NCBI GenBank assembly: GCA_018667995.1
Contig: JABIQT010000101.1
Coordinates: 1 to 8,264 of the forward strand
Origin: Candidatus Latescibacterota bacterium
Lineage (GTDB): Bacteria > JAAXHH01 > JABIQT01
Length of the DNA stretch: 8,264 bases
Direction: 5' to 3'
The notes beneath the pieces were generated by a model. It did no database searches. It was not told the origin of the DNA and was given only the letters and a program-made list of their open reading frames with translations. Shown here piece by piece: positions 3,733 through 7,894 of the stretch (positions are counted from its first letter, which is position 1; each line of letters opens with the position of its first letter). The translations under genes and the position numbers were made by a program.

Positions 3733-3762
3733 GACGTAGAAACTGGAGTGGTAGGCCCCGAG

Positions 3763-3816
3763 TGTCAATGTTAATTGTCATTGACAACGGACCGTTCGAA
3801 AATAGATTTGATGTCA
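3763..3816. promoter_or_regulatory. Cluster of TGTCA half-sites, candidate operator
   Basis: In the divergent region between the antiporter and the small-protein gene, TGTCAATG (3763-3770) and CATTGACA (3779-3786) form a perfect 8-bp inverted repeat with an 8-nt spacer. TTGTCA-T-TGACAA (3775-3787) is a second, tight palindrome inside it, and another TGTCA lies at 3812-3816. The right arm is also the -35 box of the plus-strand promoter, so a bound repressor would block it. The regulator is unknown and is not encoded nearby. Confidence 0.4.
3781..3808 (+). promoter_or_regulatory. Sigma-70-like promoter of the small-protein gene
   Basis: A perfect TTGACA (3781-3786) is followed after 16 nt by TAGATT (3803-3808, 4/6). 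Initiation near 3815 would leave a leader of about 40 nt before the ATG at 3858. This also argues against the upstream in-frame starts at 3762 (GTG) and 3769 (ATG), which would lie upstream of the transcript. Confidence 0.55.
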
Positions 3817-3857
3817 CCATATCTTCGTCCCAATACGCCTCAATAACAGGTAAGAAC

Positions 3858-4208
3858 ATGGATATCTATCATATCTGGTGCAATCTCAAATCTGGCGTCT
3901 CCGACTTGGAATTTGTGGAGCATCTCAGAGAATATTGCGACCGACTTAAGCAGTCAAAGAGACTATGCAATTTTCGGATTACTCGCTGTAAGCTCGGATT
4001 TAGGCCTGAACAATTAAGAGAGTTTCATATCATGTTGGAATTTAATGATTTAACTCAGTTGCAGGAGGCGTTTGATGAAGTGGCCAGCCGCACCGATCCC
4101 ATGGAATCGTTACATCACGCCGTTAACGGGAAAGTCGACGACGTATTCTTCGCGCTTTACCGGGATTTTCCGGATGGAGTTCGTGAGGTCGGCCAGGAAA
4201 GGTTTTGA
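3858..4208 (+). CDS. Small conserved protein of unknown function, DUF6614-like
   Basis: A 116-residue soluble protein beginning MDIYHIWCNLKSGVSD and ending ALYRDFPDGVREVGQERF. From memory this matches a family of about 115 residues with the same conserved start (MDIYHIWC.LK.GV), middle (TR.KLGF...L.EFH.M.E..DL.QL) and end (F.LYRDFPD.VR..GEERF), which I believe is catalogued as DUF6614; the name should be verified. The alternation of short strands and helices suggests a ferredoxin-like alpha/beta fold of the dimeric-barrel kind. There is no signal peptide or membrane segment. The start at 3858 is chosen because the family begins there and AGG lies 7 nt upstream, although the frame stays open to 3762. 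It is the first gene of the plus-strand block that leads to the PLP enzyme and the kinase fusion, 111 nt before the former. Function not known. Confidence 0.8.
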   Translation: MDIYHIWCNLKSGVSDLEFVEHLREYCDRLKQSKRLCNFRITRCKLGFRPEQLREFHIMLEFNDLTQLQEAFDEVASRTDPMESLHHAVNGKVDDVFFALYRDFPDGVREVGQERF

Positions 4209-4319: not shown

Positions 4320-5558
4320 ATGAAGGATACAGGGCTGATCTGTACGGTCTGTGGTGCCGAATATCCGATGGGGCCCATGTTTCATGGCTGTCCGTCGTGC
4401 CAGGAAACCGGGACCGTTGGAGCTCTCACGGTGACCTATGACTATGATGCCATAAGGCGAGGATTTGACTTGGAGACTTGGTCGCCAAACTGGCACTCCA
4501 TCTGGAGATTCCGAGATCTCTTACCGGTTCAGGATTCCGCGTGCCAGATAACGTTGGGAGAGAGCGACACCGGGTTAATTCGGCCGCGACGCCTCCAGGA
4601 GACCACGGGACTCTCCCACCTATACATCAAGAATGAGACGACAAACCCTACGTGGGCTTTCAAGGATCGATTCCATGCTGTGTCCATATCGATGGCAAAG
4701 GAGCTCGGGTATACTCGCGTGACGGCGAGCACAACCGGAAATCACGGCGCATCGGCTGCAGCCTATTCTGCGGCAGCCGGGATGGATTCTTGCGTTATAC
4801 TCTGTCACCCTGAGTCGTCTGAGCTTCAGCGAAATATGATCCGTCTCTATGGGGGCCATGCCTATGTTTTGAATGACAGGTTTCAGTATCTGGACCGTCT
4901 CATCACTGAATATGGATTCTATCCTTCTACAACGATGGAGCCAATGCCTATGGGGACGCCGTTTGGTATCGAGGGCTATAAGACGATCGCATTCGAGATC
5001 TACCTCCAGCTCGCACGCAATCTGCCGGATCACATGTTCTGTCCAATTGCCGCGGGTGACTCCCTGTACGGACCATGGAAAGGATTCGGTGAATTAAAGA
5101 AACTGGGACTTACTGATACGCTGCCCGTGATGCACGGTGTACAGCCAGCGGGATGCAACCCTTATGTTCGATCATTTCAAGAGAACAGTCCGGTCGTAAT
5201 GGTGCATCCAGATCCTCAATCTATCGCCTTATCGATAAGGGACGACGTTGGCGGTAGACCGGCTCTACAGGCCATGTACGATTCGGAAGGCGATGCTACA
5301 GATGTTACGGATGATGAGATTGTCGAGGCTGTTAAACTCCTGGCGCACAGTGGCATACTCGTAGAGCCTTCGTCTGCTGCTTCGGTTGCAGGCGCCATAA
5401 AGGCCGCTGCGGAGGGGCGTATCAAATCAGACGAGACGGTCGTCTGTCTTGTTACTGGTTCCGGTGCCAAGTGGCCGGAAGTCATGGCGGATTTGGTCGA
5501 TGAACCCGCCTCGATCGAACCTTCGTGGGAGACCATCAGGACTGAGGTCGGCCTGTGA
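4320..5558 (+). CDS. Threonine-synthase-like PLP-dependent enzyme
   Basis: A 412-residue fold-type II PLP enzyme. The N-terminus has a zinc-ribbon pattern, C8-x2-C11 and C24-x2-C27, as in the archaeal-type threonine synthase branch. The Schiff-base lysine is K115 in NPTWAFKDR (109-117); typical threonine synthases read NPTGSFKDR. The phosphate-binding loop is STTGNHGAS (137-145). Family glycine motifs continue as AAGDSLYGPWKGFGEL (244-259), VEPSSAAS (348-355) and LVTGSGAKWPE (377-387), where threonine synthases usually have a GNGG-type loop and TGHGLKDP. The overall family is clear, but these substitutions around the cofactor suggest a different substrate from O-phosphohomoserine. GAGG (4308-4311) lies 8 nt before the ATG. 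Its TGA overlaps by 4 nt the GTG start of the kinase-PdxA2 fusion, implying tight co-expression and a shared pathway. It should not be annotated simply as thrC; a lyase, racemase or dehydratase acting on a hydroxylated four-carbon amino acid is equally possible. Confidence 0.85.
   Translation: MKDTGLICTVCGAEYPMGPMFHGCPSCQETGTVGALTVTYDYDAIRRGFDLETWSPNWHSIWRFRDLLPVQDSACQITLGESDTGLIRPRRLQETTGLSHLYIKNETTNPTWAFKDRFHAVSISMAKELGYTRVTASTTGNHGASAAAYSAAAGMDSCVILCHPESSELQRNMIRLYGGHAYVLNDRFQYLDRLITEYGFYPSTTMEPMPMGTPFGIEGYKTIAFEIYLQLARNLPDHMFCPIAAGDSLYGPWKGFGELKKLGLTDTLPVMHGVQPAGCNPYVRSFQENSPVVMVHPDPQSIALSIRDDVGGRPALQAMYDSEGDATDVTDDEIVEAVKLLAHSGILVEPSSAASVAGAIKAAAEGRIKSDETVVCLVTGSGAKWPEVMADLVDEPASIEPSWETIRTEVGL
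5544..5548 (+). promoter_or_regulatory. Ribosome-binding site for the fusion gene's GTG start
   Basis: GAGGT lies 6 nt before GTG at 5555, inside the last codons of the PLP-enzyme gene. It supports the GTG start that gives the family N-terminus (SYVILADDFSGAHDAG) and the 4-nt GTGA overlap. Confidence 0.75.
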
Positions 5559-7894
5559 GTTACGTGATACTCGCCGATGACTTCAGTGGCGCCCATGATG
5601 CCGGCGCTGCATTCATTGCGCGCGGATTCCGAACCAGTGTCATTACTGATCCACGCCGACTCGAAAATGCGACGGCCGAGGTTATTATTCTCGATACCAA
5701 TAGCCGAGACTGCTCTCCGAGTGTTGCCCGGAAACGCCTGATCGCAGCTTGCCGAGCCATCAAGGCGAGCGGACATTTGCTGATATTCAAGAAGATCGAT
5801 TCAACACTTCGGGGGCATGTGGGGATAGAGATCGAGGTGGTGTGCGATGAACTCGAATACGGACTCACCGTGTTCTCACCTGCTTTTCCGGAGGCGGGCC
5901 GCGTAACGATCGGAGGATATCAGCTTGTGGCAGGAGTCCCAGTGGACCGCACGGTGACAGCAGTCGATCCCGGCAGTCCAGTTGGCACCGCAAGTATCTG
6001 CGACTTGCTTGCGGGCCAGACATCACTGAGGATAGAATCTGTGGCCCTGAATACGGTGACCAAGGGACCGGCCGCCTTGACTGCGCAGCTGACCGAGATC
6101 GTTCATGCCTCGTCCGCTATCACAGTTGTGGACGCAGCCTCGTCAGATGACCTCGCGCATATCCTGACCGCGACAAAAGAGGTAGAGATTGAGACTTTGC
6201 TATGTGGGGCCGCTGGTCTTGCCCGTAGCGTTGCAGATGACCTATCGGCACGAGACGAACGCCGTATCGATCGAAAAATAGGACTGCCAGTTACCCAAGC
6301 TCCCATTCTGGTAATAGCAGGAAGCCTCAATCCGGTCACAAGGGCCCAGATCCAGATACTGGAGAAGACGCGGGATACCACCGTCATCAACGTGAATCCG
6401 GCGTCATTGCTCTCGGAGGCGTCGGCGACGGAGAATGATCGGGCGTTTGCCGAGGCGATGACTGCACTTTCATCAGGTCACGACACCGTCATTACGTTTT
6501 CCGTCACACCACCGCCTCAACCCGAGTCGGATGGCGCTGCGGACAGTAATTCTGTTGAAAATATCGTCGTTGAGCTGGCAACTTGCCTGGGCATTCTGAC
6601 TGAGCAGATATTGGGAGCAGCTACAATCGGTGGTCTGGTTCTGACCGGTGGCGAAACGGCAGGGCAGGCCATTCGGCATCTGGGTGCCTATGGCACAGAA
6701 TTGGTCGAGCGCATCATGGACGGTGTGGCTGGCAGCCTACTAGTTGGAGGGCGCTACGAGAATCTGCCTGTCATCATCAAACCCGGTGGTTTCGGAGAAT
6801 CCCATGCGCTCGAGCAATGTGTTCGACGGCTCCGTCCTCTGCGGTTGCCCACATCGCCATCATCCGATCGTCCGATCCTTGGAATCACAATTGGTGATCC
6901 AAACGGTGTCGGTCCGGAGGTAATAGCGAAAGCTCTGTCTTCTCCGAGAATCTATGAGATTTGTCGTCCTTTGGTGATTGGTCATTCGCGGGTCATTGAA
7001 GGAGCCCTTCACTTCGGCCCTGTCCCCTTGAAGGCTATAAGAGTGGAACATGCTGAACAGGCAATGTTCGAGTACGGCACAATCGATGTGCTCAATGTAG
7101 TTGAAATGGATCCGAGTGAACTACGAATCGGAGAAGTACAAGAGATAGCCGGTCGGTTGGCAGTCACCGCAGTCGTGGAGGCGACCAAACTGGCAATGGA
7201 TGGCAAGATCCAGGCGGTCGTGACAGCACCTTTGAACAAGGAAGCTATGAATCTGGCTGGTTTCCATTATGCAGGGCACACCGAGTTACTTGCAGAATTG
7301 ACAGGAACGGACGATTATCGGTTAACCCTCGCCTTCGATGGCAAACTGGTTTCCCATGTAACGACGCATGTCTCACTTCGGCAGGCCATAGAACGTCTTT
7401 CCGAGGGAGGCATAATCGCTACGATTGAGATAGTTGGAAATGCTCTGAAACGCATGGGTATCCCGGCTCCGGACATTGCGGTGGCGGGGTTAAACCCCCA
7501 CGCAGGTGAGGGTGGTATGTTCGGAGACGAGGAGATTAACATTATCTCCCCAGCCCTTGATAAAGCTCGTTCTCAGGGATGGAATATCACTGGACCACTT
7601 CCACCAGATACCGTATTTCTCCGGGCAATGCGAGGCGAATTCGATGGTATCGTCGGCATGTATCACGATCAGGGGCATATTCCTGTCAAGGCAATAGCGT
7701 TCGATCGATCCGTCAATGTGTCCTTGGGGCTACCGATCATAAGGACCTCGGTCGATCACGGTACAGCATTTGACATAGCAGGTAGGGGTATCGCCAACGA
7801 GGAGAATCTTGAAGCGGCTATAGATATGGCGGTTCGCCTTGTCGGGGACGGTTGGTCTGTCACCCATAAAGAAAGCGCGCCGTCTGCGGGGTGA
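5555..7894 (+). CDS. Fusion: DUF1537 four-carbon acid-sugar kinase and PdxA2-type dehydrogenase
   Basis: A 779-residue two-domain cytoplasmic enzyme. Residues 1 to about 426 are a DUF1537 (OtnK/DtnK/DenK) kinase: ADDFSGAHDAG (7-17), KKIDSTLRG (79-87), FSPAFPEAGR (107-116), AGSLNPVTRAQ (255-265), nucleotide-binding TGGETA (364-369) and KPGGFG (409-414). A short Pro/Ser linker (about 427-438) leads to a complete PdxA domain (439-770): ITIGDPNGVGPE (444-455), TAPLNKEA (557-564), GHTELL (574-579), metal ligands His605 (HVSLRQ), His649 (NPHAGEGG) and His704 (YHDQGHIPVK), and TSVDHGTAFDIAG (731-743). TAPLNKEA and YHDQGHIP fit PdxA2, not the vitamin B6 enzyme. Known family chemistry: ATP-dependent C4 phosphorylation of a four-carbon acid, then NAD-dependent oxidation at C3 and decarboxylation; D-threonate gives DHAP. 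Both halves look catalytically intact. The exact substrate is unproven. The last codons form part of the convergent terminator. Confidence 0.93.
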   Translation: MSYVILADDFSGAHDAGAAFIARGFRTSVITDPRRLENATAEVIILDTNSRDCSPSVARKRLIAACRAIKASGHLLIFKKIDSTLRGHVGIEIEVVCDELEYGLTVFSPAFPEAGRVTIGGYQLVAGVPVDRTVTAVDPGSPVGTASICDLLAGQTSLRIESVALNTVTKGPAALTAQLTEIVHASSAITVVDAASSDDLAHILTATKEVEIETLLCGAAGLARSVADDLSARDERRIDRKIGLPVTQAPILVIAGSLNPVTRAQIQILEKTRDTTVINVNPASLLSEASATENDRAFAEAMTALSSGHDTVITFSVTPPPQPESDGAADSNSVENIVVELATCLGILTEQILGAATIGGLVLTGGETAGQAIRHLGAYGTELVERIMDGVAGSLLVGGRYENLPVIIKPGGFGESHALEQCVRRLRPLRLPTSPSSDRPILGITIGDPNGVGPEVIAKALSSPRIYEICRPLVIGHSRVIEGALHFGPVPLKAIRVEHAEQAMFEYGTIDVLNVVEMDPSELRIGEVQEIAGRLAVTAVVEATKLAMDGKIQAVVTAPLNKEAMNLAGFHYAGHTELLAELTGTDDYRLTLAFDGKLVSHVTTHVSLRQAIERLSEGGIIATIEIVGNALKRMGIPAPDIAVAGLNPHAGEGGMFGDEEINIISPALDKARSQGWNITGPLPPDTVFLRAMRGEFDGIVGMYHDQGHIPVKAIAFDRSVNVSLGLPIIRTSVDHGTAFDIAGRGIANEENLEAAIDMAVRLVGDGWSVTHKESAPSAG

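Follow-up and report, generated by a model that had tools for sequence, protein, structure and literature searches.

In a 2016 study in ACS Chem Biol, Thiaville et al. reportedly found a strong association of a subset of the DUF1537 family with PdxA2, both through physical clustering of the genes and through their fusion; they are said to have judged vitamin B6 synthesis to be a side activity and not the main role. Zhang et al. are likewise said to have described, in PNAS in 2016, the D-threonate kinase DtnK together with PdxA2. Members of DUF1537 phosphorylate 4-hydroxy-L-threonine (4HT) to the 4-phosphate, although the role of the family lies rather in acid-sugar catabolism (PMC7954711), and according to a 2023 survey the PdxA reaction is also carried out by PdxA2, which may take over where PdxA is missing (PMC9997740). 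Table 4 of a 2016 paper (PMC4921024) includes DUF1537 among the domains whose fusion to a B-vitamin (PLP) gene led to functional discovery, and cites Thiaville et al. 2016 for that discovery. The type of fusion that we describe here is already known; the part worth testing is its role, throughout a bacterial order, as the sole PdxA.

The window, i.e. the whole stretch of DNA that was analysed (8,264 nucleotides), is one entire contig from the draft genome of a Candidatus Latescibacterota bacterium (6.06 Mb, 1165 contigs, 85% complete). It contains a single open frame running from a GTG start to its stop codon with no internal stop, in which the two Pfam kinase domains, SBD_N (189.5 bits, cut-off 25) and NBD_C (92 bits, cut-off 28.3), are found on the same chain as PdxA (PF04166, 349 bits, cut-off 27). 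The PdxA domain also scores above the cut-off of the PdxA family model TIGR00557 (352 bits against 290). In alignments, the kinase motifs ADD, KKIDS, TGGETA and KPG form invariant columns among the relatives from the order, and the three histidines of the PdxA domain line up with those of the TTH, NPH and YHD motifs of E. coli PdxA. The first-pass annotation, which had recognised a kinase and a PdxA dehydrogenase in one polypeptide from these DUF1537 hallmarks and metal-binding histidines, is upheld in all these respects, and the frame reads without a stop through the linker of about 12 residues that it had placed between them.

Features of the window, with positions counted from its first nucleotide
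Feature	Position	Strand	Evidence
PLP-dependent enzyme, threonine-synthase family	4320..5558	+	Profile match; next to the fusion in all 16 genomes
Fused DUF1537 (four-carbon acid kinase)-PdxA protein, 779 aa	5555..7894	+	Frame, Pfam, orthologues across the order
Kinase domains SBD_N (residues 4-225) and NBD_C (252-419)	5564..6811	+	Pfam, alignment columns
Linker, residues about 427-438, RLPTSPSSDRP region	6833..6868	+	Alignment
PdxA domain, residues 468-759	6956..7831	+	Pfam, motif alignment
PdxA-domain metal ligands H605, H649, H704	codons 7367, 7499, 7664	+	Alignment
Convergent IHF/HU-like DNA-binding protein, runs off the contig end	8047..8262	-	By eye from translation

We compared the locus across 16 genomes of the order, including the window's own, several of which are drafts. 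Each has exactly one PF04166 match, always at the fusion locus, and exactly one NBD_C domain, adjoining PdxA. Kinase and PdxA share a single frame in 12 of the 16 and occupy two frames in four species of one genus (G004, G006, G008 and G009). In all four the kinase ends at a stop codon that is followed by an ATG just 5' of the PdxA domain, the split being caused by an in-frame stop in G004 and G009 and by a change of frame in G006 and G008; where the junction was read, a purine-rich stretch lies 5' of this ATG. Phylogenetic trees placed the kinase and PdxA domains of the order each in one monophyletic clade, with the split versions nested among fused relatives (G006 through its kinase only), which suggests fission of an ancestral fusion as the simpler reading. 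Conservation within the order is highest in the PdxA domain (76% mean pairwise identity), the two kinase domains diverge faster (58% and 50%), and the linker, at about 24%, is the least conserved and varies in both length and sequence. An AlphaFold model of the fusion (pLDDT 73, pTM 0.59) came from a shallow alignment and was poor in the second half of PdxA, and the geometry of its domains is not readable.

The split relatives bear on the purpose that had been proposed for the fusion, namely direct passage of the 4-phosphate to the dehydrogenase. With the protein divided in four species of one genus and the linker so weakly conserved, the covalent link between kinase and PdxA is dispensable, at least in those species, and channelling is not supported. 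Nor does the companion proposal stand that fusion avoids the release of a beta-keto acid phosphate: it is the PdxA domain that produces this compound, at a stage after the fused step, and a kinase fusion cannot prevent the release of a product of the last domain. What could possibly pass between the domains is the 4-phosphate, which is not known to be unstable.

As for the DXP-dependent pathway of vitamin B6 synthesis, PdxJ was found in all 16 genomes of the order, each time together with one PdxA-family enzyme. Three aligned copies of the main PdxJ paralogue (window's genome, G002 and G013) keep the equivalents of H45, E72 and H193, which we take to be the catalytic residues (E. coli numbering). 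Most genomes also carry a second, divergent PdxJ paralogue (e.g. L052:9244-10002 in G002 and L050:4223-4978 in G000:C1139). The two copies aligned do not have residues matching these three and are located next to a SecD-like protein, identified by eye, and a polysaccharide deacetylase that is itself divergent; the paralogue looks catalytically dead, with a conserved place. ThrB is present in 16/16 genomes and PdxH in 13/16, none having been found in the window's own incomplete genome. The order's only PdxS match (1/16; G001:C37:1202-1819) lies in a genome that also has PdxJ and the fusion, and may reflect a second pathway or contamination. Canonical PdxB, with its DUF3410 domain, was found in 0/16 genomes, which is weak evidence because most PLP-making Gracilicutes also do without PdxB (PMC9997740).

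Given that PdxJ depends on what PdxA produces and that these genomes have no PdxA other than the fused domain, the fusion is most economically read as the PdxA step of B6 synthesis, and we consider it likely that the fused domain carries out this step. The kinase domain would phosphorylate a four-carbon hydroxy acid at C4, the likeliest being 4HT, which would yield 4-phosphohydroxy-L-threonine; the PdxA domain would oxidise the latter with NAD to a beta-keto acid, whose decarboxylation would give 3-amino-1-hydroxyacetone phosphate, the substrate of PdxJ. The fusion would thereby keep the enzymes of two successive steps in constant proportion, and acid-sugar turnover may be its second role. The scheme taken whole, from a kinase-made 4-phosphate to PdxJ, seems to us evenly poised between right and wrong. 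With the kinase permanently joined to the sole PdxA in genomes that have PdxJ, 4HT is its favoured substrate, and we would put the predicted supply of PdxA's substrate from 4HT at slightly under an even chance. Against the scheme, the PdxA domain is nearer to PdxA2 (314 bits) than to E. coli PdxA (180 bits) and the kinase is nearest to D-threonate kinase. Moreover, ThrB, ubiquitous in the order, is able in B. subtilis to use 4HT as a substrate for phosphorylation (PMC7954711), G001 has PdxS, and several of the genomes are drafts.

The neighbouring genes offer further clues. In every genome of the order the gene directly upstream of the fusion encodes a PLP-dependent enzyme of the threonine-synthase family, and in the window its stop codon overlaps the GTG start of the fusion by four bases (GTGA, 5555-5558), so that co-translation of the two genes is probable. 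In the window's genome it is the third paralogue of its family, two better thrC matches being found elsewhere; in all copies compared, it has a glycine where the better matches have an arginine before EG(Q/K)KT, which presumably binds phosphate, and this R to G change and a Y before KT are conserved changes of the substrate loop. Taken together, the better matches elsewhere and the lost arginine make it doubtful that this is an ordinary threonine synthase, and it probably is not one. 4-Phosphohydroxythreonine resembles O-phosphohomoserine but carries an additional hydroxyl group, and a putative link of the upstream enzyme to 4HT is therefore chemically reasonable. That the 4HT route is the order's main natural way to B6, with the fused kinase and PdxA feeding PdxJ and the adjoining enzyme helping to make or handle 4HT, is a tentative extension that we regard as rather unlikely.

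Neither a DeoR-type regulator nor a sugar-acid permease was found beside the gene pair in the order, unlike at loci with separate genes, which counts in favour of the B6 reading, as does the high conservation of the PdxA domain. Downstream in the window the pair is bounded by the IHF/HU-like reading frame. In most relatives a lone oligopeptide-type solute-binding protein (SBP_bac_5; L035:2843-4561 and equivalents) directly follows the fusion; it is absent from the window. Upstream of the pair the window encodes a DUF6614 protein (3762-4208); in the remaining genomes none of its relatives was found close to the fusion.

Two functional alternatives deserve consideration. In the first, which we hold to be unlikely, PdxA would serve B6 synthesis from the ordinary pool of 4-phosphohydroxythreonine, made by PdxB/PdxR-type and SerC-type enzymes, and the kinase would supply the same PdxA site with a flux of its own, for acid sugars or detoxification. 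Such a division of labour would suit the faster divergence of the kinase domains, the existence of split versions and the known activity of PdxA2 on the PdxA substrate (PMC9997740); it is harder to square with the lack of canonical PdxB, although non-orthologous replacements are common, and with a single, universal gene pair that has no sugar-acid genes adjoining.

The second alternative is catabolic, and we think it quite improbable: the kinase would phosphorylate D-threonate (or D-erythronate or L-threonate) at C4 and a PdxA2 domain would oxidise the product, with decarboxylation to dihydroxyacetone phosphate. This is the reading of the first-pass annotation, whose domain names were right. 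The nearest solved PdxA relatives are PdxA2, D-threonate 4-phosphate dehydrogenases. The best kinase model is also a D-threonate kinase (NCBIfam NF047819), and Klebsiella and others have D-threonate-type loci made up of separate, adjoining kinase and PdxA2 genes. The fusion, however, stays below the cut-offs of both D-threonate models (273.7 bits against 450 for NF047819; 335 against 583 for PRK03371, D-threonate 4-phosphate dehydrogenase PdxA2), so that sequence does not settle the kinase substrate. A purely catabolic enzyme would moreover leave the PdxJ of all 16 genomes without any PdxA, and the locus, present once in every genome of the order and with no acid-sugar transporter or DeoR-type regulator, does not resemble an optional catabolic one. 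The pathway is doubtful, since the sole PdxA and PdxJ in every genome, with PdxS in one, point to B6.

Finally, it is extremely improbable that the fusion is a sequencing or annotation artefact or a decaying gene, since, fragmented as the assembly is, most of the order has the same fusion, with invariant catalytic motifs and both domains monophyletic, and the recurrence of one domain order in these orthologues rules out chance, a local sequencing error or a frameshift as its source. Our preferred reading is B6 synthesis, perhaps alongside acid-sugar catabolism, D-threonate breakdown being possible. An order with PdxJ, without canonical PdxB, nearly without PdxS and with the fusion as its sole PdxA is a concrete, testable candidate, and the domains are suited to expression and testing in standard E. 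coli pdx mutants.

How rare such fusions are had been left open by the first-pass annotation. They are frequent in the order and of a kind reported in 2016; beyond it, a search of 384 genomes (368 of them from outside the order; 267 of the 384 with a match) returned mostly stand-alone PdxA or adjoining separate genes among the matches listed, with one certain fusion among those listed from the 368 outside genomes (G124, L067:6868-9321, 818 aa). In the tree, the PdxA of the latter groups with a Burkholderia PdxA, apart from the clade of the order, and this fusion thus looks independent. Two other candidates, G061 and G333, are actually two adjacent ORFs each, and the long frames of G141 and G304 contain a PdxA match without a kinase. 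In the plasmid records that we inspected, kinase and PdxA genes adjoin as separately annotated genes.

Compared with named systems, the protein is closest in make-up to the DUF1537-PdxA2 fusions and clusters, which have the same two domains, with some kinases converting 4HT to 4-phosphohydroxythreonine and PdxA2 performing the PdxA reaction; what differs here is that the fusion is the sole PdxA in the PdxJ-bearing genomes of a whole order. DtnK and PdxA2 belong to the same enzyme families and likely work in the same way, with phosphorylation at C4 followed by oxidation and decarboxylation, but they are encoded by separate genes, with a regulator or permease at the loci inspected, whereas here they are fused, single copy and adjoining a threonine-synthase-like gene. 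E. coli PdxA (b0052), which has no kinase, has the metal-binding histidines and the GHTE and IRTSVDHGTA motifs in common with the PdxA domain of the fusion, and differs in reading YHDQGLP where the fusion, as in PdxA2, has YHDQGHIP. The Arabidopsis protein LTD (PMC12540250) is likewise multi-domain, with domains homologous to all bacterial enzymes of L-threonate breakdown, but its dehydrogenase domains are named LtnD, and the name PdxA is absent from that paper.
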